From contig NZ_CP015105.1 in assembly GCF_002214545.1 (NCBI RefSeq), positions 1,178,001 to 1,242,000 of the forward strand: a DNA stretch of 64,000 bases. The letters run 5' to 3'. Below the pieces are notes generated by a model, which searched no databases, was not told the DNA's origin, and saw nothing but the letters and a program-made list of their open reading frames with translations. Of this stretch, positions 4,754 through 64,000 are shown piece by piece (position 1 is the first letter of the stretch; the number at the start of each line of letters is the position of its first letter). The position numbers and the translations under genes were made by a program. The stretch is from Thermococcus thioreducens (GTDB taxonomy: Archaea; Methanobacteriota_B; Thermococci; Thermococcales; Thermococcaceae).

Positions 4754-6040
4754 TCACTCGGCCTTCTGGATGGAGATAACCATACCGGCAGCGACGGTCT
4801 GGCCCATGTCACGGATGGCGAACCTGCCCATCTGCGGTATCTCCTTGACCGGCTCGATGACCATCGGCTTGGTCGGCCTGAGGACGACGATGGCGGAGTC
4901 ACCGGTCTTGATGAACTGCGGGTTCTCCTCGACGATGTTGCCGGTCCTCGGGTCGAGCTTAGCCAGGAGCTGCTCGAACCTGACGGCGACCTGGAGGGTG
5001 TGCGCGTGGAGGACCGGGGTGTAGCCGACGGTGATAGCGGTCGGGTGGTTGAGGACGATGATCTGGGCCTTGAAGGTGTCCTTCGGCCTGACGACGGTCG
5101 GCGGGTTGGTGGTGTGTCCGGCAACGTCACCGCGCTTTATGTCGTTCTTACCAACGCCACGGACGTTGAATCCGATGTTGTCACCCGGAAGGGCCTCCTG
5201 CATGGCCTCGTGGTGCATCTCGATGCTCTTGACCTCACCCTGGATCGGCTTGTGGAAGATGGTGCTGGCCGGCTCGAAGATAACGACGTCACCGACCTTG
5301 AGGACACCGGTCTCGACACGGCCGACCGGGACGGTACCGACACCCTTAATGGAGTAGACGTCCTGGATCGGGATGCGGAGCGGCTTGTCGGTCGGCTTCG
5401 GCGGCTCCGGAATCTGGTCGAGGGCGTCGATGAGGGTCGGGCCGTTGTACCAGGGCATCTTGTCGCTCTTCTTGACGACGTTGTCGCCCTCCCAAGCGCT
5501 GATCGGGATGATCGGGAAGTCCTTGTAGCCGAGCATCATGAGGAGCTTCTTGACCTGCTCGGCGACCTGCTTGAACTTCTTCTCGTCGTAGTTGACCATG
5601 TCCATCTTGTTGATGGCGACGATTATGTGGCCGATACCGAGGGTCCTGGCAAGGAAGGCGTGCTCCTTGGTCTGCGGCATGACACCGTCGGTGGCGGCAA
5701 CGACGAGAACGGCAGCGTCGGCCTGGCTGGCACCGGTGATCATGTTCTTAACGAAGTCTCTGTGGCCCGGAGCGTCGATGATGGTGATGTACCTGTGCGG
5801 GGTCTCGAACTTGGTGTGGGCAACGTCGATGGTAATACCCCTCTCCCTCTCCTCCTTGAGCCTGTCCATGACCCAGGCGAACTTGAAGGACTTGCCCTTC
5901 TCACCCATCTCCTCGAACTTCTTGATGATGTTCTCCGGTATGTTGGCGGTGTCGAAGAGCAGCCTTCCGATGGTGGTGCTCTTTCCGTGGTCGACGTGGC
6001 CTATAAAGACAATGTTAACGTGCGGCTTCTCCTTAGCCAT
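4754..6040 (-). CDS. tuf: Translation elongation factor EF-1alpha
   Basis: This 428-aa GTPase delivers aminoacyl-tRNA to the ribosome. G-domain motifs are GHVDHGKST at residues 14-22, DAPGH at 89-93 and NKMD at 144-147, followed by two beta-barrel domains. The second of two close ATG codons is used, because GGAGGTG ends 7 nt before 6040 and overlaps the first one. The length equals the usual archaeal EF-1alpha. It heads a tuf-rps10-(tRNA-Ser) unit. Confidence 0.98.
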
Positions 6041-6064
6041 TTTCATACACCTCCATATTTTGGT

Positions 6065-6097
6065 CTAGTCTCGTTGACTAGGATGGCTTTTTAAATC
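6065..6097 (-). promoter_or_regulatory. tuf promoter with inverted repeat at the transcript start
   Basis: On the minus strand a TATA element TTTAAAAA lies at 6088-6095. A perfect 6-bp inverted repeat, CTAGTC and GACTAG with a 5-nt spacer, covers 6065-6081. The expected transcription start, about 25 nt after the TATA box, falls inside this repeat. It could be an operator or an mRNA 5'-end hairpin. Confidence 0.5.
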
Positions 6098-6118
6098 TTT
6101 CGAACCTCGGCCCCCTCG

Positions 6119-6133
6119 GGCGGGAAACCCGCC
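6119..6133. repeat. GC-rich hairpin upstream of tuf
   Basis: GGCGGG and CCCGCC are perfect complements around AAA, followed on the plus strand by TTTTAT. It lies between the end of the 173-aa gene and the tuf promoter. It resembles a hairpin/T-tract on the plus strand, where no gene needs one, so its role is open. Confidence 0.5.
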
Positions 6134-6225
6134 TTTTATCGGGGAGGCCTCATGAGTTCCGTCCCTAAGTTACGAAGCGGGTTTAAAAAGTTAACTACGG
6201 GGGTTTGAACAGAAAAATGTAAACC

Positions 6226-9212: not shown

Positions 9213-10289
9213 TCAATCAAGGAAGGTCTTCAGAAACCTTTCAACCCACTCCCTCACGTCGGCCCTCGCATAGATCCCCCAGCGCCAGTGAGCGTCCTTC
9301 AGTTCAACGAGGGAGCGAACGAGAGGTGAAACCTCGCTGAGACGCCTCAGTCCGTTCTCCGTCTCGACGAAAGCGTTCTTCTCCTCGAACTTGGGCTTTG
9401 GGGGATAATCCACCAGGACTAAGTGGCCAAACTCGGCTTCAAGTTCTCCCCTCAGCTCCTCAACTGCCCCCTCACCGGGGTCTCTGTTCGTGTAGAGAAC
9501 ACGCTTGTAGAGCCTCCTGTCGTCCATGGCCTTGACGAGCTCGCGAACTTCGTCCTTCTCGCTCCTCCTGAGCCTCGCTACGAGGTCAACCTCGTCCATG
9601 GTGCGGATTTCTTCGAGGGACAGCCCCTCCAGTTCGACCGCCTTGACGAGCATTGCGCTTGCTATCCTTGAAACGTGGTGCCCGTAAACAGTGGGATACA
9701 TCATGCTCCTCGCGAGGAGAAGACTTTGGGCGGCCATTACACCCTTTTCCTCCACCACGAGCCTCTCACCGTCGTAGTACAGGTTCCTCACGAGCCTGTC
9801 GAGGTCGACCAGCCCGTAAGCAACGCCGGTGTAGTAGGCGTCCCTCACGAGGTAGTCCATTCTGTCGGCATCGATGTCCCCGCTCACGAGGGGGTGTTTG
9901 AAAAGCTCGATGAACTCCCGGAGGGAGTATTGCTCCCTCAAGACATCTCCGATTTCACCGTGCCTTATTAACCACTTCGTGTTCTCCTCGTGTCTTGGAT
10001 AGAGTGCCTCAAGGGTGTGACTGAAGGGGTAGTGGCCAAGGTCGTGGAGCAGAGCGGCGTGAACTGCTCCCTCCTCAATCTCTGGATTGTGCTCGGCGAT
10101 TCGCTTTGCCAGATAGAACGTCCCGAGCGAGTGCTCGAAGCGGGTGTGCCGGGCGGAGGGGTAGGCGAGAAAAGCCATGCCCAGCTGGGTTATCCGCCTG
10201 AGCCTTTGAAACTCCGGCGTATCCACAAGCCTAACCGCAAACTCGTCAAGCTCGATGTGGCCGTGTATTGGGTCGTGGACGAGCTTCAT
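9213..10289 (-). CDS. HD-domain phosphohydrolase (SAMHD1/dGTPase-like)
   Basis: The 358-aa protein starts with the typical VHDPIHGHIELDE. Metal-site residues are visible as His53 in RFEHSLG, His82-Asp83 in LLHDLGHYPFSH and an Asp in SGDIDADRMDYLVRDAYY. Family members hydrolyse dNTPs or other phosphoesters, but the substrate cannot be read from the sequence. The C-terminal third is a charged extension seen in archaeal members. It lies between fusA and the ABC cassette on the same strand, with no sign of coupling. Confidence 0.88.
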   Translation of the reverse strand: MKLVHDPIHGHIELDEFAVRLVDTPEFQRLRRITQLGMAFLAYPSARHTRFEHSLGTFYLAKRIAEHNPEIEEGAVHAALLHDLGHYPFSHTLEALYPRHEENTKWLIRHGEIGDVLREQYSLREFIELFKHPLVSGDIDADRMDYLVRDAYYTGVAYGLVDLDRLVRNLYYDGERLVVEEKGVMAAQSLLLARSMMYPTVYGHHVSRIASAMLVKAVELEGLSLEEIRTMDEVDLVARLRRSEKDEVRELVKAMDDRRLYKRVLYTNRDPGEGAVEELRGELEAEFGHLVLVDYPPKPKFEEKNAFVETENGLRRLSEVSPLVRSLVELKDAHWRWGIYARADVREWVERFLKTFLD

Positions 10290-10344
10290 AATGTTCCCCG
10301 GGAAAAGAGGGGAAAAAGTTTAATAAATCTAATCCCCAAAAATA

Positions 10345-11124
10345 TCAACGGGCAGGGGCTTCCACTTCAAGTGGTTCACCTCCGCTTGGAGTTTGCCGAC
10401 CCTCCTGCCCTAGAGAGGGGGCATCTTCGCTCCCTCTCCTTTTTGAACGTCCAACCTTGGGCTTGAACAGCTTTTCGACTTCCTCCTGCACTTCCTCCAC
10501 TTTTCCACTCAGGACGAGCTTTCCGTTGCCTATGACAACTACCCAGTCCACTATCGGAATCAGCGGCTCCCAGATGTGGCTTATGACAACGAAGTTGGTC
10601 TTTTTCATCCCCTCGATTATCTCAATAACCCTCTCCATGCTGTCGAAGTCTATGTTCGCCAGGGGCTCGTCAAGGAATATCAGCTCGGGCTTCCCTACGA
10701 AGGCCTGCGCCAGGCTCAAACGTTTCAGCATTCCTGATGAGTAGCCGTTTATCCTCTTGTCTATAAAGGGCATGACCTCAAACAGCTCCGCAACCCTCTC
10801 GACTTCTTCCTCACCGAACCCTTTGCTCTCAGCGAAGAGAGTCAGCCATTCCCTCCCGGTGACGAACTGCGGAAAAGCCGGCGGGTCGTAGGCAACGCCG
10901 AAGCGGGCCTTAAGTCTTCCATTGTTCCAGGGGACTTCACCGAAGACCCTTATCTCTCCGGCGCTTGGACGATAAACGCCGGTGGCGAGCTTTAGGAAGG
11001 TGCTCTTTCCGCCGCCGTTGGGGCCGAGGATTAGGGTGATTCCCTCAGGAATGTCCACGGTAACGCCGTCGAGCGCCTTGATGCTCCCGAAGTGTTTCTT
11101 CAGGTCTCTCGCCTCGATTATCAC
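10345..11124 (-). CDS. ABC transporter ATPase of the left secreted-protein cassette
   Basis: The 259-aa protein has Walker A GPNGGGKST (residues 34-42), a degenerate signature YSSGMLKRLSL, Walker B ELIFLDEP and a switch His in VVISHIWEP. The last 40 residues are charged and divergent. The start is the GTG at 11124, whose GTGA overlaps the previous stop and which is 6 nt after GGAGGTG. A GTG at 11139 lies inside the ribosome site. It is the last gene of a seven-gene chain with an ABC-2-type permease, so it should energise that permease. Export, extraction or signalling are all possible. Confidence 0.9.
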   Translation of the reverse strand: MIIEARDLKKHFGSIKALDGVTVDIPEGITLILGPNGGGKSTFLKLATGVYRPSAGEIRVFGEVPWNNGRLKARFGVAYDPPAFPQFVTGREWLTLFAESKGFGEEEVERVAELFEVMPFIDKRINGYSSGMLKRLSLAQAFVGKPELIFLDEPLANIDFDSMERVIEIIEGMKKTNFVVISHIWEPLIPIVDWVVVIGNGKLVLSGKVEEVQEEVEKLFKPKVGRSKRRGSEDAPSLGQEGRQTPSGGEPLEVEAPAR

Positions 11125-11582
11125 CTGCCCCACCTCCACACAATGAGTGCCAGGAGGATTGCAAAAGCGGAGCCGCTGATGTAGAGGGCGTTTTGGACAG
11201 GTTTGGTTGGGTAGTTTTTGATGAAACGGAAGGAGCAGGTGAGTTTGTCAGTGCCGTTGTTAATTATAAGGTAGTCTCCCTCCCTCGGCAGAACGAACTG
11301 ATACCTGGCATGGCCGTAGACGGCGTGTTTGTCCACCTGTTCTCCGGTTATGACGTCATAGACCTCAATGACCCCGTTGCCGTTGCAGGAAGCCTCAACC
11401 AGTGAGCTGGTGGGGGTATGGGCTGTTACTGAGGTTATATCGGTCACATTACCCTGACGCTCCACCGGCTGGAGAAAAACCGGGCCGATTGAGCCGACCT
11501 GATTTTCATAGGAACTGTAAACCCAGAGCGAGCCGATGGTGAGCAGGAGCATTGCGGACAGCAGGGCACCCCAGAACCTCAC
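11121..11582 (-). CDS. Small bitopic membrane protein of the cassette, 153 aa
   Basis: A hydrophobic N-terminal helix (about 4-22), a roughly 100-residue outside domain and a C-terminal helix (about 130-148, ending RWGR) are visible. The outside domain has the pattern of a small beta-sandwich, with VIEVYDVITGE and a strand ending REGDYLIINNGTD, and has two Cys. The GTG start overlaps the permease stop as GTGA and follows GGAGGGAT. A divergent homologue in the same position begins at 63623, so the gene is a fixed part of the cassette. No known family is recognised. Confidence 0.8.
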   Translation of the reverse strand: MRFWGALLSAMLLLTIGSLWVYSSYENQVGSIGPVFLQPVERQGNVTDITSVTAHTPTSSLVEASCNGNGVIEVYDVITGEQVDKHAVYGHARYQFVLPREGDYLIINNGTDKLTCSFRFIKNYPTKPVQNALYISGSAFAILLALIVWRWGR

Positions 11583-12346
11583 ACCACATCCCTCCTTCTG
11601 ATGAGAACCCACGCGAGGGCAAAGAGCGCCAGCGGGACGAGAAGGCCCCAGCCGATGTAGTTAATTGTGAACGGCGTGAAATCAGTGCTCCCGCTCCTGG
11701 GTATGGCGTTGATGAAGAGCACCGGCGGGACGTTGGAAAGGCCGGTAACCCTGGGCGCGTATATCACCGCAAAGCCGATCATGAATGCTAAGAATGCGTT
11801 TGGAGATGCCAGCGAGACAAAGGTCGCAACCGCCACCATGTAAAGTACAAGGAAAACTACCAGAACCAGTGCATCGCTTAGGAAGTTTGAGGTTATCCGG
11901 GGGAGGTACTTCAAGATGCCCGCGTAAGTGGTCACGCTAACGTAGGCGAAGGGCAGCAGTATCATGGTGAATCCGTAGATTAAGAGCGAGAGAAGCTTGA
12001 CCCCGAAGAGTTCACCGTTGGAGTAAGGAAGCGAGTAAATCGAACGCGCAACGCCGCTGTCCCTGTCGTAGCGGAACGTTAAAGCGCCGAGGAGCAGAAC
12101 GAGAAAGCCCATCAGTGTCCAGACGTCGTCGAGGGAAAGGAGGATTTGAATACTCGACGCCACCCCCTTTGCCCGGAGAGGCCCAAAGAGTTCAATTTCG
12201 GTTCCAGAGACAAACCCCATGCTTGAATTAACACCCATAATGGACTGCTTCATCGCCATCCCTACCAGGAGTATTCCGAACAGTAAGAGAACGTTCTTCA
12301 CAACGTCATTCATTTCCCAGCGGAAGATTACACACCGACGTTCCAT
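11579..12346 (-). CDS. ABC-2-type permease of the left cassette, 255 aa
   Basis: About six hydrophobic helices can be traced. The N-terminus places an amphipathic FRWEMND segment before the first helix, as in ABC-2-type permeases with one half per polypeptide. The segment RYDRDSGVARSIYSLPYSNGELFGVKL is the cytosolic coupling region typical of these proteins. It aligns well with the 62847-63626 permease (QLEWELND, then VYSLPIRKWKLFLIK). It starts 4 bp after the preceding gene and shares a GTGA overlap with the next one. Confidence 0.88.
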   Translation of the reverse strand: MERRCVIFRWEMNDVVKNVLLLFGILLVGMAMKQSIMGVNSSMGFVSGTEIELFGPLRAKGVASSIQILLSLDDVWTLMGFLVLLLGALTFRYDRDSGVARSIYSLPYSNGELFGVKLLSLLIYGFTMILLPFAYVSVTTYAGILKYLPRITSNFLSDALVLVVFLVLYMVAVATFVSLASPNAFLAFMIGFAVIYAPRVTGLSNVPPVLFINAIPRSGSTDFTPFTINYIGWGLLVPLALFALAWVLIRRRDVV

Positions 12347-12350
12347 GGAG

Positions 12351-13439
12351 TCACCTCCTTTTTCTTAGTGAAGCCCATACCACGGCGATTCCCAGGAAAA
12401 CCAGTGTGATGTAGAAAATGTAGCCCACCGCGGTCTGAGGTCTTGTGTATTTCACCTCATCAACAGCTCCAAAATCCGCGTTGGTGTCATGGAGGACAAG
12501 GCCGAATTTCCAGGAGCGGTTCTTTTTCGCAATCATCCGATATCCCGATAGCTGGTCCTCAAACACTGCCCATTTCACACCAATTGCACGAAAATCGGCG
12601 TAGGGAGCAGTACCTGTGGTTGCGGGATATAGGGCAATGCCGCTGGAGGGATCGTAGATTATCCCTGCACTTGGCCCGCCGAACGACACGTCAATTAGTG
12701 TATACTCCCTTTTTTCGTCAATTCTCTGGGACAGCTTGAAGTCCCCCATGGTTAGCGCAATTGAAATCAGGGGCGGGCCGAATTTTCCATAGTACGTCAT
12801 CGCCGATTCGTTGAGGGTACCTGCCCCCCATACCGTTACGTTCGTACTTCCCAGGAGGGAAAACGTTTCATTTGCTTCGGGGAGATTGTTGGGGTTTATC
12901 CAGAGGAACGTGTGCCCGTAATAGTTGCCGTCCATATCAAAAACCGCGCCATCACTCCGCCGTATCATATAGTCACCGGAGAGCGTGAGGTTGTTCAACT
13001 TAACCTCAAGCCACACGCAGTCGAGAAATCCTACATCATGGCTCGGGATGAGCTTCTCAGATATAACGTCCCTGCGGTTCCAGAAGACCGGATATCTGGT
13101 GCCGTTCAAAAATATCGAAGAAATCGTCACGTTTTCCATCATAATTGTCGCCCGTACTCGTAAATACCCATTGTTTTCATCCAAAATATCGAATCGGACT
13201 GTGGTATTGTTGTTTGCGAATACCCTGAATAAAGTGCCGTTAATCTCGATGAAGATTTCGGCAGTGTGTATTTGGTTTGGGAGTGCTCCCGTGACTAAAT
13301 CAAAGTATGGGTCGTACCTCTGGACGATGTACTCAATGTAAACTCCCGGCTTGACCCAGTACGGGGCCGCGAGCGCTGAATGAAGGCCTCCGATGAGGAT
13401 GAATATTGCCACTAACATCGAGGGAATGACGTTCCTCAT
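12351..13439 (-). CDS. Type I membrane protein, cassette paralogue 3, 362 aa
   Basis: A signal peptide (about residues 1-24, ending SALA) leads to APYWVKPGVYIEYIVQRYDPYFD, a domain of about 300 residues with many Asn-X-Ser/Thr sites, and a C-terminal helix followed by RKRR. The C-terminal helix with basic tail predicts an outside-facing, membrane-anchored protein. Shared landmarks with its two neighbours are the VKPGVYIEY start, YYGHTFLWINPN in the middle and LHDTNADF near the end. The ATG at 13439 overlaps the previous stop as ATGA and follows GGAGGAAAT. No known family is recognised. Confidence 0.85.
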   Translation of the reverse strand: MRNVIPSMLVAIFILIGGLHSALAAPYWVKPGVYIEYIVQRYDPYFDLVTGALPNQIHTAEIFIEINGTLFRVFANNNTTVRFDILDENNGYLRVRATIMMENVTISSIFLNGTRYPVFWNRRDVISEKLIPSHDVGFLDCVWLEVKLNNLTLSGDYMIRRSDGAVFDMDGNYYGHTFLWINPNNLPEANETFSLLGSTNVTVWGAGTLNESAMTYYGKFGPPLISIALTMGDFKLSQRIDEKREYTLIDVSFGGPSAGIIYDPSSGIALYPATTGTAPYADFRAIGVKWAVFEDQLSGYRMIAKKNRSWKFGLVLHDTNADFGAVDEVKYTRPQTAVGYIFYITLVFLGIAVVWASLRKRR

Positions 13440-14488
13440 TTTGATTTCCTCCAGCCTTTTGCTGTCATGATAGAGCCGAGGAGAACCAGCGACCCCCAGA
13501 ACGCGTACTTCCACGGCGTTTTAGCCTTCGAGAACGGTACCTCTTCTACTCTCTGAAACTCAGCATTGGTGTCGTAGAGTGGCAACAGGCCGGCCCACAT
13601 GGGGTTTCCCTTTACCATCTGGTCATAGGCCACGCGCTCGTCCATAAAGGATGCAAAAGGAATCCCTATAGCGGCAAGGTCAGGGGAGATCAGTATTGAG
13701 AGGGTAGTCGGGGATAACACCATTCCAGTTGCTGGGTCGTAGCATATTCCCCCAGGAGTCTGGGTGGTGAACTCCAAACGACCCTTTATGACGAGCGGTG
13801 GCCCCATAAGGGAAAGTATGGCAGTCGGCGGTCCAAATTCTCCGTAGTACGTTTTCTTGGGTTTATCCATCGCGGACACCCTTTCGACTTTCATCGTCCA
13901 GTTAAGGGTGGGAAGAACGACAAAAGTATCATTCCCCTTTGGGGTCTCATTCGGGTTAATCCAGAGGAAAGTGTGGCCATAGGGTCTCCCATCTATCCCG
14001 AAGACCATCCCATCCCTCTTCCTTATTCTATATTCTCCAAATATCCTCAGGGAGCGAAGTTTGACCTTTACGCTGACCTCACCATCAGCCGAGACCCGTT
14101 TCGATGTTGAGAGCATATCTGTACTCTCCCAGAAGGCCGGGGCGCTGGTTCCGTTGTGGAGGCTGAACTTGATTGTTACATTTTTGAGCTCAATGATAAC
14201 ACCAACGACAAAATACTCCCCGCTCTCCCCGAGTATCTTGAATTTTATGAGGGTATCATTATAGCTATCCACCCAGTATTCTGTTCCGTTTCTGAAGTAC
14301 AGAATGGAAGCAGTCGTGACTGATTCCAATTTCGTGCCATGACTGATCTGGGTTTCAATGTATGGGTCGTACCTCTGGGCGATGTACTCAATGTAAACTC
14401 CCGGCTTGACCCAGTACGGGGCCGCAGATGTAGGGAAAACAAGAAGAGATATTGTAAATAAAACTCCCAAACCCCTAAGAGCCTTCAT
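13436..14488 (-). CDS. Type I membrane protein, cassette paralogue 2, 350 aa
   Basis: It has the same architecture as the next gene: signal peptide ending TSA, the start APYWVKPGVYIEYIAQRYDPY, a large outside domain and an anchor followed by GWRKSK. The match at the mature N-terminus is nearly exact, while the rest has diverged. YGHTFLWINPNETP and YDTNAEF recur. The ATG at 14488 overlaps the preceding stop as ATGA and stands 8 nt after GGAGG. The in-frame GTG at 14503 would lie in that ribosome site. Confidence 0.85.
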   Translation of the reverse strand: MKALRGLGVLFTISLLVFPTSAAPYWVKPGVYIEYIAQRYDPYIETQISHGTKLESVTTASILYFRNGTEYWVDSYNDTLIKFKILGESGEYFVVGVIIELKNVTIKFSLHNGTSAPAFWESTDMLSTSKRVSADGEVSVKVKLRSLRIFGEYRIRKRDGMVFGIDGRPYGHTFLWINPNETPKGNDTFVVLPTLNWTMKVERVSAMDKPKKTYYGEFGPPTAILSLMGPPLVIKGRLEFTTQTPGGICYDPATGMVLSPTTLSILISPDLAAIGIPFASFMDERVAYDQMVKGNPMWAGLLPLYDTNAEFQRVEEVPFSKAKTPWKYAFWGSLVLLGSIMTAKGWRKSK

Positions 14489-15513
14489 TGCCTCTTCCTC
14501 CACGCCACAACCACTGCGAGCACCAGGAGTAGGACAACGGCCGTGTATAGATATGCCGCGTCCGTTTCAGATTTTGAAAACTGTACCGTCTCAGCGACCC
14601 CAAACTCTGCATTGGTGTCGTAAAACCCTATTCCGTAGGTGTAGAGCTTCCCGTCCTCCTTGTGGTTCTTGCTCATGTACATGCCCCACTGATCCATAAA
14701 GTACACCAGCTTGACACCGCATGCCGCGAGATCAGGGGCTGTCGGAAAAAGGCCAGTAACAAACATACCTGTGGATCCATCGAAATACAGTATCGCATCG
14801 GTTCTTGAGAAGGAAACCTCCCCAATCGGGGTCTTTACACTCATACCTCCCGCGGTTCTGACGTAGATCACCGGCTTCGTGAAATTGGAAGTTCTAGTGA
14901 TTACACTCACGTCCAGGGAAGTAACGTTCACCACCTTTGAAATGGAATTGCCCGCGAAGCCAACGAGCTGAAACGGCTGATCTACTGTTATGGGGGCGTT
15001 TCCCAGATCGTCCCAGAGGATTGTGTGGCCGTAGTTTGTGCCTGCGGTATCGAAGACCATGCTGTCCTCCTTTCTAATCTTGTAGGTGCATGAGTACCTA
15101 GCCTCCGTGACGTTGAATAGCGTCTCGTTGTCAAGGGTCTTTTTTGAGATCAAAGCTGATTCCGGCCACAGCACTACCGTCTTGTCCCCGAACTGCTTTA
15201 TCGTTACATTAAACATCTCCAAAATCAGCTTCATGAGCAGGTAGTCTCCTTCGTCGCCCAGGATGGTAAATGTCAAGTATGTGTCCCCCATAGCAGACAT
15301 CTGGATGTAAGTACCATTAACCTCAAGAACAACGTCACCCGTTGAGAGAGACATGCCCGTTGATGCATACTTACGGGCAATTTCCTCGTGTCTTAATGAG
15401 GCATACTTAATATAAACTCCCGGTTTGGCCCAGTATGGCATGGCATTAACAGGATACGCACCGATTAGCACGATCAAAAGAATCACGAGGAATTTCAGGT
15501 TTTTGCTGTTCAA
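14485..15513 (-). CDS. Type I membrane protein, cassette paralogue 1, 342 aa (TTG start)
   Basis: The signal peptide ends near PVNA and is followed by MPYWAKPGVYIKYASLRHEE, an outside domain and an anchor helix ending AWRKRQ. It is the most divergent of the three, but keeps NYGHTILWDD and FYDTNAEFGV. The start is a TTG at 15513, which is 5 nt after a strong GGAGGTG. It follows the small secreted protein gene by about 50 bp and overlaps the next gene by 4 nt. Confidence 0.85.
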   Translation of the reverse strand: MNSKNLKFLVILLIVLIGAYPVNAMPYWAKPGVYIKYASLRHEEIARKYASTGMSLSTGDVVLEVNGTYIQMSAMGDTYLTFTILGDEGDYLLMKLILEMFNVTIKQFGDKTVVLWPESALISKKTLDNETLFNVTEARYSCTYKIRKEDSMVFDTAGTNYGHTILWDDLGNAPITVDQPFQLVGFAGNSISKVVNVTSLDVSVITRTSNFTKPVIYVRTAGGMSVKTPIGEVSFSRTDAILYFDGSTGMFVTGLFPTAPDLAACGVKLVYFMDQWGMYMSKNHKEDGKLYTYGIGFYDTNAEFGVAETVQFSKSETDAAYLYTAVVLLLVLAVVVAWRKRQ

Positions 15514-15565
15514 GACACCACCTCCAAATATCCATTAAGATATAAAAAGAAAAAGGGTGGCACTC

Positions 15566-15904
15566 TCAATATGCCGGCCAGTGAGCAGACGCTACCACGG
15601 TCTCTGGAGCATCAGGAGCGAGAACTACCGTCTTTACGGTAATTCCCGTGCTGTCATAGTACTTGTAGACACCATAGGAGTATGGGTCGAGCTCGTTAAT
15701 CAGACCACCATCTCCGTACCTGTAAGTTATCTGGTAGTTGGTGTACGGATTGTTGACATCATACTTGACTCCGATTTCTGCATAGGCCCAGCCATACTGG
15801 CCTGAACTGTAGTCTCTCACAACCGTGGTGTTCCATATCGTCGCTGCCGCGAACCCTGCCGCCACTACCAGCAGACCGAACAGTATTGCCACAAGCTTCT
15901 TCAT
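15566..15904 (-). CDS. Small secreted aromatic-rich protein, 112 aa
   Basis: A clear signal peptide (lysines, then AILFGLLVVAAGFAAA) precedes a mature chain of about 90 residues. The mature part is rich in Tyr, Asp and Gly, with no Cys and no second membrane helix. The ATG at 15904 follows GGAGGGT by a normal spacing. It is the first gene of the seven-gene chain, so it is likely the most abundant product. Its size and position suggest a released substrate or signal, but I do not recognise the family. An analogy to bacteriocin operons is only architectural. Confidence 0.75.
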   Translation of the reverse strand: MKKLVAILFGLLVVAAGFAAATIWNTTVVRDYSSGQYGWAYAEIGVKYDVNNPYTNYQITYRYGDGGLINELDPYSYGVYKYYDSTGITVKTVVLAPDAPETVVASAHWPAY

Positions 15905-15920
15905 GGTGCCGACCCTCCTG

Positions 15921-15950
15921 CCCGGGGGGCGGTCAATACGCCCTGTCGGG
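15921..15950 (-). promoter_or_regulatory. Structured leader of the seven-gene operon
   Basis: Directly upstream of the GGAGGGT of the first gene, CCCG (15921-15924) can pair with CGGG (15947-15950), and GGGCG (15927-15931) with CGCCC (15939-15943). A nested GC-rich hairpin with a 7-nt loop results. AT-rich TATA candidates lie at about 15966-15973 and 16000-16010 on the minus strand. The rest of 15951-16188 is AT-rich and holds no gene that I can see. The hairpin could limit ribosome access or insulate the operon. Confidence 0.5.
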
Positions 15951-16188
15951 CAATTGGTTATACTCCCATCATCATATTTAACTTTTACTTCAAAGTTTAA
16001 TTATAAATTTCAAAAAAAAATCGGGAACGTCCCTGCAGCCCATTACATTGTACAAACACATAGGCAGATATGTCAAAACTAACAACCCGGTTATGCAGGT
16101 GTTAACGAAATAATTTAACAAAAGGTCGCAGAATTGTGCAAAAACTTCGGAGAGAGTAAAGAGAATAAGGAATATCGAGTCTCAAATC

Positions 16189-16992
16189 TCAGCTCCACGT
16201 CTCCGCTATCACGTCGTGCTTGTGGATGCTCTCGTTGCTGATGACCTTCACGTGGATCTTTCCTTTAAACCTCTCCTTCGCCCTGGCGAATATCTCGCGC
16301 GCAACGTCTTCCACGAATTTCGGGTTGGCAAACATACCCTGCACGACGGCGTTTTCATCGACGGTCTTAAGGAGCGTGTAAGTCGGATGACTGAAGGAGC
16401 TCTCGACGACGTCTATCATGTCCTCCAGTGCTATCTCCTCATCAAAGGCCGTCCTCACCTCAAGCTCGCCTATCGCCCTCTGTATGTGGGTCTTTCCGTT
16501 GTTGTTGGCCATCGCGTGGGGGCAGGCGGTGTTGCCGACCACCTTGACGCGGAGAACCTTCTCAAAGGAACCCTCCTCGTTTTTGATGACACCGACCTCG
16601 ACGTCGTAGGGCTCGTAGGTGGTCTTTTTGCTCGCGGGAGTCTCGCGCGGTATTATGAGGTGGGTTCTTATCCAGACCTCGGCGCGCCTGTGCGGGTGCT
16701 TGCCCTCAAGACGTTTGATAATGGACTTTCCAAGCTCCTCAAGGGAGCTGTGGGCCTCCATCACTTCCTCCTCGACGGCCTCGCTCATGGCCTCGGTTAT
16801 GCTTTCCACGAGCCTGCTCATGTGTATTCCCTTCTTCTCCTCCGGGACATCTATGGTTATCTCGAACACTGGGAGAAAGGTGTACACCCGTCCTTTCCAG
16901 TTTATTCTCGCCACGGTGCGCAGGTTGGTTATCCCGACGCGGTGAAGGCGCTCCATTATCTCCGGCCTCTCCTCCTGGGTCTCGACGAGCAT
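16189..16992 (-). CDS. mptA: GTP cyclohydrolase MptA (FolE2 type)
   Basis: The 267-aa enzyme converts GTP to 7,8-dihydroneopterin 2',3'-cyclic phosphate, the first step of archaeal pterin (methanopterin/folate-like) synthesis. The metal-ligand Cys is in NTACPHAMA, and the conserved [14 protein letters not shown] and [15 protein letters not shown] blocks are present. The ATG at 16992 is 4 nt after GGTGAT. The in-frame GTG and ATG just upstream are part of the ribosome site. Confidence 0.93.
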
Positions 16993-17043
16993 TAGCATCA
17001 CCTTTAACTTTTTAGGGGCTTCTAATTCGACCGCCTTTTAAAC

Positions 17044-61840: not shown

Positions 61841-62860
61841 ATTAGAGGAAAACTCGGAAGAGTTATTGCACTAATTGCACTAATTCTTGCCTTTCAAGAG
61901 GTGCCCTCAACCACCTCAGCATGGGGAACAGCTAGGTGGCTCAAAGAAGGCACCCACGCAACGTACGCGCTCCTTGAACCCCCAGGCGGCCCAAGGGACA
62001 TCAAGGACCTGTACATGTTCCAGCTCTATCCAGAAATGCTTCCTTCCAGTGTTAGAATCGACATCATAAGCCGCTTGAGCGACGATTCTCCCTGGAAAAA
62101 AGACGGTTTCCCATTTGTAATCGGAGACTGCACAGGGATATTCCTTCGTTTTGAAATCGTCGATATCCAAAAGAAACTTGCCCGGGTTAACATCAGCGTG
62201 ATGTTTGTGAATGCCACCCTCGAGGGCAACTATCTCGAAATAATCCCCAATCTGACGATATGGAAGGTGCTGAACCTTAACCTGACAACCATGACGTACT
62301 TTGATAACGGAACCCCCATCGGAAAGGCCACCCTCTTCATCGATCCATCGGATACACCGAGACCCGGGGAAGTGCTCTTCAGACTTAAGGGGCTTTCAAT
62401 GGAGACCAACGTCTCGGTAGGAAACGTCACCTACAGTGCCTATGGCAACAGCACGGTTCTGACGTACTACAGACCCTTCAAGCCGCCCCACATCGGAATA
62501 ACAACCAGGAGTTTCTACTTCAGCGATGCCGGGGAGAACTGGTCAATCTCTGGAGGGGGAAAGGAAGAGTACACCTACGACTTCCTAACCGGCGTCATGA
62601 TAGCGGGAACCTTCAGCCACTCCACCGAGCTGATGGCCCTTGGAGTTTTTAGTATTGATGGTATGGACAGAAGAATCCGCGGAAAATCAGAAGCTGGGGT
62701 GTGGCCAGACGGCATCAAACTGTATGACACGAACATCGCTTTTCCCGACGAAGGAAACTCTTCCCCTCCCGATAGTCTCTGGAGGTACTACCTGTACTCC
62801 GGAATTCTGGCACTGATGGCTTCACTTCTGGTGAGGTGGTGGAATAATGGGCACCGTTAG
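61841..62860 (+). CDS. Type I membrane protein of the right cassette (probable ATT start)
   Basis: The 339-aa protein has a signal peptide (RGKLGRVIALIALILA), an outside domain beginning AWGTARWLKEGTHATYALL and a C-terminal anchor (YYLYSGILALMASLLV followed by RWWNNGHR). KLYDTNIAF and LFIDPSDTP recall the left-cassette paralogues. No ATG, GTG or TTG opens the signal peptide. ATT at 61841 is 6 nt after GGTGGTGG and 34 nt after the TATA element TTTATAAG (61800-61807). The first regular start, GTG 61901, would remove the signal peptide. Confidence 0.72.
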   Translation: MRGKLGRVIALIALILAFQEVPSTTSAWGTARWLKEGTHATYALLEPPGGPRDIKDLYMFQLYPEMLPSSVRIDIISRLSDDSPWKKDGFPFVIGDCTGIFLRFEIVDIQKKLARVNISVMFVNATLEGNYLEIIPNLTIWKVLNLNLTTMTYFDNGTPIGKATLFIDPSDTPRPGEVLFRLKGLSMETNVSVGNVTYSAYGNSTVLTYYRPFKPPHIGITTRSFYFSDAGENWSISGGGKEEYTYDFLTGVMIAGTFSHSTELMALGVFSIDGMDRRIRGKSEAGVWPDGIKLYDTNIAFPDEGNSSPPDSLWRYYLYSGILALMASLLVRWWNNGHR

Positions 62861-63626
62861 AACCCAGTTGGAGTGGGAGCTGAATGATCCACTGAAGCTC
62901 GTTGTTTTCCTCTTCGGGTTCTTGCTGGCAGGGCTGGCGTTCTTGAAGGACGCCCTCAGTATGGGAGCAACCGGCATGTTGAGCCCCTTCAGCCAGGGAT
63001 CCGCCGTTCACTACGCCAAAACCATTCCAAGGCTTGCCCTGCCAGTTTTATCCCAGGAAGCCTACAGCGTTCTTATCTTCGTTGCAGTTATGCTCTCCAC
63101 CCTTTCAGTAAGGGGTGAGATTGACTCGCTGGCTGCCCTAACCGTATACTCGCTCCCGATCAGGAAGTGGAAGTTGTTCCTGATCAAATTTGTTTCAGTC
63201 CTAGTTCTGACGGCCCTATCATTCGTGATCCCCTATTTCCTGGCCGTGGGATACGTCCTCTCTGGCTCTCCTTCTCTCCTCGCCGGGATACTCGGAGACG
63301 GGGTCTGGAGTAATGTTCTGACGTTTTTCCTGATTGCGGTCTTCTACACGGTCTCGGTTTCCATTTTCATAGCCCTGCTGTCACCGAATTCGTTTGCCTC
63401 GATTCTGGGGGGACTCTCAGTACTGTACGTCCCGGTTATTCTCGGGATATCCAGCCTGCCCCCGTTCAGCATCTCCGCCGCTATGTCATCCTATCTGAGT
63501 TCGGTGGCCTATGGAATGGGACACACAGTTGCCGCCCACGGGAATGTGGCTGGGGTTGGGTTCTTTCTTCCCTCCACGCTGTTGGCGGCATCGGTAATCC
63601 TCAGCGAAAGGAGGGATGCCCGGTGA
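62847..63626 (+). CDS. ABC-2-type permease of the right cassette, 259 aa
   Basis: About six helices are seen, with the amphipathic QLEWELND segment before the first and the coupling region SLAALTVYSLPIRKWKLFLIKF. It is the homologue of the 255-aa permease at 11579-12346 and takes the same place between an anchored outer protein and a small bitopic protein. The ATG lies 7 nt after GGTGG and overlaps the previous gene by 14 nt. Confidence 0.88.
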   Translation: MGTVRTQLEWELNDPLKLVVFLFGFLLAGLAFLKDALSMGATGMLSPFSQGSAVHYAKTIPRLALPVLSQEAYSVLIFVAVMLSTLSVRGEIDSLAALTVYSLPIRKWKLFLIKFVSVLVLTALSFVIPYFLAVGYVLSGSPSLLAGILGDGVWSNVLTFFLIAVFYTVSVSIFIALLSPNSFASILGGLSVLYVPVILGISSLPPFSISAAMSSYLSSVAYGMGHTVAAHGNVAGVGFFLPSTLLAASVILSERRDAR

Positions 63627-64000
63627 AGAGGTTTGCAGCGTTCCTTCTGCTCGCCCTTCTACTCTTCACCATAGAATCGCTACTTCTTCCCCGGTACTAC
63701 CAGGAGACCCCAACGGCCTACGGATTCTTCAGTGACGATGGTTCCTCCGTTTCGGTGTTTGTCCCGACCGCAAGAAGGGTCGCCATCAGCGTCGTAACGG
63801 AGAATCTGGATAGGTGTGAAATCGAGGTGTTCGATGGCGTCCGGAACAGGTTCATCACGAACCTGACCGCAATGGGGAACATGTACCGGGAGATGGAGCT
63901 TCCCGATTCCGGGACGTACTATTTCGTGTACCATGGAAACGGCACTGCGAGGATAGCCGTTGGAACCCTCGCGATGTACCCATCTAGAGGAGTGTTGAAA
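63623..64000 (+). CDS. Small bitopic protein of the right cassette (cut by window end)
   Basis: A GTG at 63623 overlaps the permease stop as GTGA, after GGAGGGATG. The first 126 codons give an N-terminal helix (RFAAFLLLALLLFTIESLLL) and a beta-rich outside domain with CEIEVFDGVRN and LPDSGTYYFVYHGNGT. This repeats the pattern VIEVYDVITGE and REGDYLIINNGTD of the left 153-aa protein. The rest, and any ATPase after it, are outside the window. Confidence 0.8.
   Translation, partial: MKRFAAFLLLALLLFTIESLLLPRYYQETPTAYGFFSDDGSSVSVFVPTARRVAISVVTENLDRCEIEVFDGVRNRFITNLTAMGNMYREMELPDSGTYYFVYHGNGTARIAVGTLAMYPSRGVLK

Follow-up and report, generated by a model that had tools for sequence, protein, structure and literature searches.

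The window examined here, a 64 000 nucleotide (nt) stretch of the Thermococcus thioreducens chromosome (RefSeq accession number NZ_CP015105.1; coordinates 1178001 to 1242000), is part of a 2.07 Mb single-contig genome, designated G000. It carries on its reverse strand seven adjacent genes for a small secreted protein (SEC), three membrane-anchored outer proteins (OUT1, OUT2 and OUT3), a permease (PERM), a small membrane protein (BIT) and an ATPase (ATP). On balance, this cassette probably encodes a polymorphic effector and its partner in the manner of a toxin-immunity module, together with an ATP-binding cassette (ABC) transport module. Related loci in other genomes show that the cassette is conserved, that SEC is paired with the OUT encoded next to it, that further OUT genes form orphan arrays, that blocks of the locus have been exchanged between genomes, and that the cassette has been lost between two direct repeats.

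Conservation of the core and diversity of SEC

Relatives of OUT were found in 53 of the 94 genomes of the order using a single-sequence search, and in 61 of the 115 genomes of the phylum using profiles, all of them in the Thermococcaceae, the one family to which the near relatives of the window genome belong. Genes were mapped with iterated profiles over about 85 loci around these relatives, and a constant gene order, OUT(1–5)-PERM-BIT-ATP, was observed, often in several copies per genome. Where SEC is present in front, the order is SEC-OUT(1–4)-PERM-BIT-ATP. As this order recurs in dozens of genomes, the arrangement of the seven genes is not due to chance, and the profile searches and tabulation of gene order found the cassette genes conserved together in many genomes, as expected of the coupled set proposed in a first-pass annotation. 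The transporter is not confined to one such set, PERM-BIT-ATP being a constant chassis present also with other SECs or with none.

At least six SEC families (A to F), none of which matches a known family, occupy the same slot directly 5′ of an OUT. The window type, SEC-A, was identified in 23 genomes, as a gene or as a remnant, and in every case an OUT cassette follows immediately 3′ of it; only two weak partial matches to SEC were located away from OUT cassettes in the 61 genomes. SEC-B fills the slot in a further ~28 loci, some of which have tandem SEC-OUT units ahead of one transporter (L037). Families C to F came from cassettes first taken to be without a SEC, their genes lying upstream of OUT at distances from a 4 nt overlap to 25 nt. 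Members of all families are short, secreted and of net negative charge, with 12–19% aromatic residues. SEC-A and SEC-B share weak local profile similarity that does not establish a common origin. Within one SEC type, the ratio of nonsynonymous to synonymous substitution rates (dN/dS) was 0.04–0.20, indicating that the SECs are real, constrained proteins.

Covariation of SEC with the adjacent OUT

In type A loci, sequence identity between mature SECs was found to covary with that between the adjacent OUTs (Mantel r=0.50, p=0.0002, n=17). No covariation of SEC was found with PERM, BIT, ATP or the SEC signal peptide, nor with the chromosomal genes for EF-2 or FolE2. In the nine type A loci with more than one OUT, SEC covaried with the adjacent OUT (r=0.44, p=0.02) and not with the last (r=−0.14, p=0.75). 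A group of close SEC-B loci gave the same result (r=0.65, p=0.0005 for the adjacent OUT; r=0.12 for the last). Over all type B loci, the transporter and OUT covary alike, as shared ancestry would give. When the Mantel test was slid along OUT, covariation was present nearly throughout and no single segment dedicated to SEC binding was singled out.

The pairing is also apparent when SECs and OUTs are sorted into types. SEC-1 was found with O7 in all four loci that carry it (G021, G024, G055 and G067) and SEC-3 with O3 in three of three, two loci with a broken SEC likewise beginning with O3; SEC-6 stands with O5, and both SEC-4 and SEC-5 with O4. The OUTs in later positions are mostly of types that stand first, and paired, elsewhere. 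In the window, SEC-3 is followed by O3 and then by the orphans O7 and O4. The orphan OUTs compared had dN/dS values of 0.15–0.39, indicating purifying selection. The earlier suggestion that SEC and the outer proteins belong together is therefore upheld for OUT1, as SEC identity tracks only the adjacent OUT, and not for OUT2 and OUT3. The window SEC does not have three equivalent partners, as the types of OUT2 and OUT3 are found first and paired with different SECs in other genomes.

Exchange of blocks and loss of SEC

Comparison of G000 with G037 revealed 90–98% DNA identity over FolE2, the leader, OUT3, PERM, BIT, ATP, the HD-domain gene and EF-2, whereas OUT1 and OUT2 could not be aligned and SEC aligned over only half its length. 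The reverse was seen with G014, which is 98% identical to G000 in OUT1 and in as much of SEC as can be aligned, but 80–85% identical in FolE2 and the HD-domain gene.

SEC is disrupted in four genomes in which OUT, PERM, BIT and ATP are intact (G014, G015, G032 and G045), and in G072 no SEC was detectable in an otherwise intact cassette. G055 has a stop in SEC together with a split PERM.

Proposed function and alternative explanations

SEC has a Sec signal peptide, which predicts its export and release as a small β-rich protein. The adjacent OUT would be its cognate surface-anchored partner and, given the observed pairing, most likely binds SEC outside the cell as an immunity protein. PERM-BIT-ATP would form a constant ABC-2-like module that clears captured SEC from the membrane or the surface, in the manner of lantibiotic immunity exporters. 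A new SEC-OUT pair would recombine into the locus ahead of the old pair and displace the old SEC; the old OUTs, which are seen to persist downstream, may be kept as orphan immunity towards relatives in which the old SEC is still present. The toxicity of SEC, its binding to OUT, the immunity and the direction of transport are proposed by analogy with known systems. The bacteriocin-type interpretation raised in the first-pass annotation is the best fit, with SEC as a presumptive toxin. It is conceivable, if somewhat short of probable, that these loci are a widespread archaeal antagonism system (archaeocins) with surface-anchored immunity of a novel fold, an ABC chassis compatible with at least six SEC families, arrays of orphan immunity genes, and a repeat-bounded locus that is lost as a unit.

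Several observations weigh against a toxin-immunity module. SEC is acidic, whereas many bacteriocins are cationic, and it shows no toxin signature. Many cassettes, namely those of types C and D and some in Pyrococcus, are without a SEC. SEC-7 pairs with either of two OUT types, O1 or O2, and the clustering of both proteins into types depends on the cut-offs chosen. In G016, SEC is intact and each of both OUTs contains one frameshift, reflecting decay or an assembly error; as strict immunity does not allow an intact SEC with frameshifted OUTs, this genome counts against it unless the frameshifts are assembly errors. In addition, a ligand-receptor (pheromone or kin-recognition) system would likewise give pairs that are swapped together.

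Ligand-receptor signalling is the main rival. Under it, SEC would be a polymorphic signal in kin recognition or quorum sensing, OUT the receptor, and the ABC module would transduce or clear the signal. Both the co-swapped pairs and the loss of SEC with retention of OUT fit this scheme, the latter as signal-blind or listening strains, and a study of archaeal genomic islands (PMC4158269) offers quorum sensing as one possible role for other variable secreted loci of Thermococcus. However, signalling appears unlikely, as the cytoplasmic tail of OUT is short and basic, the cassette encodes no kinase or regulator, and immunity more readily accounts for arrays in which as many as three orphan OUTs are under purifying selection. 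The loss of SEC from cassettes that keep OUT and the ABC genes, and the orphan arrays, are not predicted if SEC is a secreted scavenger or adhesin that binds an external ligand or surface and docks on OUT, with the ABC module importing or releasing cargo and with diversity arising from phage or niche pressure. Aromatic-rich β proteins could bind ligands, OUT has a large anchored outer domain, and an ABC module is present, but the permease is of the ABC-2-like exporter type (by a weak match) and no solute-binding-protein fold was found for OUT, making this explanation quite improbable. A multidrug-resistance-type ABC exporter with a substrate-binding protein, as proposed for an arCOG00194 operon by Makarova et al. 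2014 (PMC4158269) and with SEC as an accessory, would accord with the best curated model for ATP, drrA, though the match is below its cut-off. It leaves unexplained both the covariation of SEC with OUT, decoupled from the transporter, and the presence of at least six SEC families in one slot, and is very improbable.

Relationship to known systems

A toxin-immunity module would have a counterpart in the type VI secretion system (T6SS) arrays of V. cholerae, in which a polymorphic effector gene lies beside that for its cognate immunity protein, the pair is swapped by recombination, and partner genes lacking an effector are kept in a 3′ array and resemble the paired genes of other strains (PMC5361080). 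Related behaviour has been described for EsaG of the S. aureus type VII secretion system (T7SS; PMC9484751). As in such displacement arrays, the putative effector and the adjacent partner are co-inherited as a pair, and the downstream orphans match paired partners of other strains, OUT2 of the window being of type O7. Loss of the putative effector with retention of the partner was found in five genomes and the opposite in one (G016). Unlike the T6SS and T7SS arrays, the loci described here are archaeal, belong to unrelated protein families, use a Sec signal peptide and include an ABC-2-like module, and toxicity is in this case presumed.

The cassette is similar to lantibiotic immunity loci (LanI and LanFEG) in that an anchored outer protein and a putative ABC-2 exporter are encoded beside a small secreted product. 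However, it could not be assigned to LanFEG. The lantibiotic protection ATPase is among the nearest curated models for ATP, but the score was far below the cut-off (TIGR03740; 112.6 bits versus 309.75). A single six-helix permease plus BIT stands in place of the two ABC-2 permeases of LanFEG, and the cassette has no modification enzymes and no LanB/C/M-like gene. Lactococcin 972 operons encode a small Sec-secreted, β-rich bacteriocin with a membrane protein and an ABC ATPase. Membership of this group was rejected, as no match to PF09683 was found for SEC or elsewhere in the genome, and OUT is without a counterpart there.

The VARTIG modules of Thermococcales are hypervariable membrane-associated loci proposed to act in conflict or self/non-self recognition (PMC8416519). 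The window cassette is not one of them, as its first gene product is only 112 amino acids (aa), it includes no large protein of the arCOG07710 type with multiple immunoglobulin (Ig) domains, and no Ig match was above cut-off; ABC transporters are not mentioned in the text of PMC8416519. Operons containing arCOG00194, found in variable archaeal dark-matter islands, are described in PMC4158269 as encoding an ABC ATPase, a permease with six transmembrane segments and a diverged putative binding protein, with drug resistance proposed. These may overlap the core of the window cassette and are possibly the same system seen in part, though neither a small secreted partner nor any pairing, orphan arrays or bounding repeats are described in its text. 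The open-access literature searched yielded no account of SEC, of its pairing with OUT or of the orphan arrays, and no described bacteriocin of Thermococcales. Protein weapons are almost unknown in archaea.

Genes and predicted proteins of the window cassette

The seven genes are present in the order and at the coordinates given in the first-pass annotation (Table 1), which had also predicted five tight junctions. These were confirmed as four 4 nt stop/start overlaps, at OUT1/OUT2 (CAATGAAG), OUT2/OUT3 (AAATGAGG), PERM/BIT (GTGTGAGG) and BIT/ATP (AGGTGATA), and one gap of 4 nt at OUT3/PERM. For OUT2, OUT3, BIT and ATP, the mechanically called open reading frames start too far upstream, and the coupled starts at 14488, 13439, 11582 and 11124, respectively, are a better fit.

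Table 1. Features of the window and their coordinates
Feature	Coordinates	Strand	Description
HD-domain protein	9213..10289	-	Chromosomal 3′ flank
ATP	10345..11124	-	ABC ATPase, PF00005
17 nt direct repeat, 3′ copy	10394..10410	-	Inside 3′ end of ATP coding sequence
GC hairpin	10413..10438	-	Inside 3′ end of ATPase gene, upstream of 3′ repeat copy
BIT	11121..11582	-	Small membrane protein; outer domain between N- and C-terminal helices
PERM	11579..12346	-	ABC-2-like permease, six hydropathic segments
OUT3	12351..13439	-	Orphan outer protein, type O4 (with SEC-4/5 in other genomes)
OUT2	13436..14488	-	Orphan outer protein, type O7 (with SEC-1 in other genomes)
OUT1	14485..15513	-	Type I membrane outer protein, putative cognate partner of SEC, type O3
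SEC-A	15566..15904	-	Small secreted protein, 112 aa; signal peptide 1–20; mature part ~92 aa, acidic, aromatic-rich, β
17 nt direct repeat GGGCAGGAGGGTCGGCA, 5′ copy	15907..15923	-	In SEC leader; contains SEC ribosome-binding site
SEC leader	15924..16010	-	Conserved; TATA-like TTAAATA; GCCC able to pair with repeat GGGC
FolE2 GTP cyclohydrolase	16189..17001	-	Chromosomal 5′ flank
Second core cassette	61901..64000	+	OUT 61901–62860, PERM 62847–63626, BIT from 63623; no SEC; runs past window

The three OUTs are true paralogues, as had been proposed, OUT2 sharing 43% identity with OUT3 and 34% with OUT1, and each has an N-terminal signal. The C-terminal helix with a basic tail predicted for all three was evident from hydropathy in OUT1 and OUT3; in OUT2 the helix is weak by hydropathy and is supported by an AlphaFold model (residues 325–349). 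Two hydropathic segments were identified in BIT and one, N-terminal, in SEC. ATP includes the Walker A motif, a C-loop-like SSGM, Walker B and the H-loop. OUT2 and OUT3 share a 71 nt block of 97% DNA identity around the mature N-terminus (13300–13370 and 14355–14425), which, at 43% protein identity overall, is a possible recombination block similar to those of esaG arrays.

SEC, OUT and BIT had no credible match in those of the Pfam, NCBIfam, PADLOC and PDB sequence searches applied to each, and the OUTs could not be placed in any known binding-protein or sensor family. ATP is the only cassette protein to score above a curated family cut-off (PF00005, 71 bits versus 25), PERM matching PF12730 weakly (16.5 against a cut-off of 27). 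PADLOC matches in the cassette were limited to the ATPase, which does not support a known anti-phage defence system. A confident AlphaFold2 model of OUT was obtained from eight aligned sequences (predicted local distance difference test [pLDDT] 82; predicted template modelling score [pTM] 0.78), with a mostly β ectodomain and a C-terminal helix. It matched no known fold, nothing scoring below E=0.001 against PDB and viral structures. The SEC model, from four sequences, is all-β and of low confidence (pLDDT 66), and nothing in PDB matched this low-confidence model below E=0.001. A viral or plasmid origin of the cassette was rejected, as no relatives were found among viral contigs or plasmids.

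Direct repeats bounding the cassette

The 17 nt direct repeat is perfect and occurs twice in the 2.07 Mb genome, with 0.18 sites expected by chance in the window when up to 3 mismatches are allowed. Most type A cassettes elsewhere also have both copies, the sequence being conserved although the 3′ copy is within a coding sequence. Some genomes have FolE2 and the HD-domain gene adjacent, with a gap of ~7–35 nt and no repeat. G034, G057 and G060 lack the cassette but retain the leader, a single copy of the repeat and the 3′ flank, exactly the scar that recombination between the two copies would leave. Ordinary recombination or slippage suffices to explain loss between the repeats. The repeat is not claimed to be the end of a mobile element, there being no recombinase in the cassette. 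G024 has the cassette at a different locus, under a promoter of its own, so that the two repeats do not have to mark the termini of a transposed unit. No bounding direct repeats were found in the two type B cassettes checked. Three base pairs of the hairpin show compensatory changes, and the GCCC/GGGC pairing of the leader is conserved, without covariation.

Genes that by eye resemble those of a RelE-type toxin and a small antitoxin lie between FolE2 and the HD-domain gene in G034, G023 and G061 (L133, coordinates 5690–6155; L137; L138), and occupy the chromosomal site of the cassette in genomes that lack it.

Further cassettes and neighbouring genes

G000 holds four core cassettes: the one described above, that from 61901 onward, and two outside the window (L034 and L035). 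The cassette at 61901–64000 is downstream of an MFS-like transporter gene, and a gene for a PEGA-domain protein follows its ATPase gene outside the window. A PEGA-domain membrane protein accompanies two cassette subtypes. In a SEC-B cassette of G043 (L113; C4:40001–60000), five OUTs alternate with four PEGA-type proteins ahead of one PERM-BIT-ATP. VapBC-like genes (PIN-domain toxin and ribbon-helix-helix antitoxin, identified by eye) are directly upstream of the SEC-less cassette L035 in G000 (coordinates 9831–10564).

Implications for the Thermococcaceae

If the cassettes are toxin-immunity modules, over half of Thermococcaceae genomes would carry such loci, and which strain inhibits which could be predicted by comparing the SEC type of the first with the OUT types of the second. 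Archaea, using unrelated proteins, would then join the bacterial T6SS and T7SS as a setting of effector-immunity displacement. Should SEC prove to be a signal and not a toxin, these pairs would still allow a direct test of ligand-receptor specificity in Thermococcus, which is genetically tractable.

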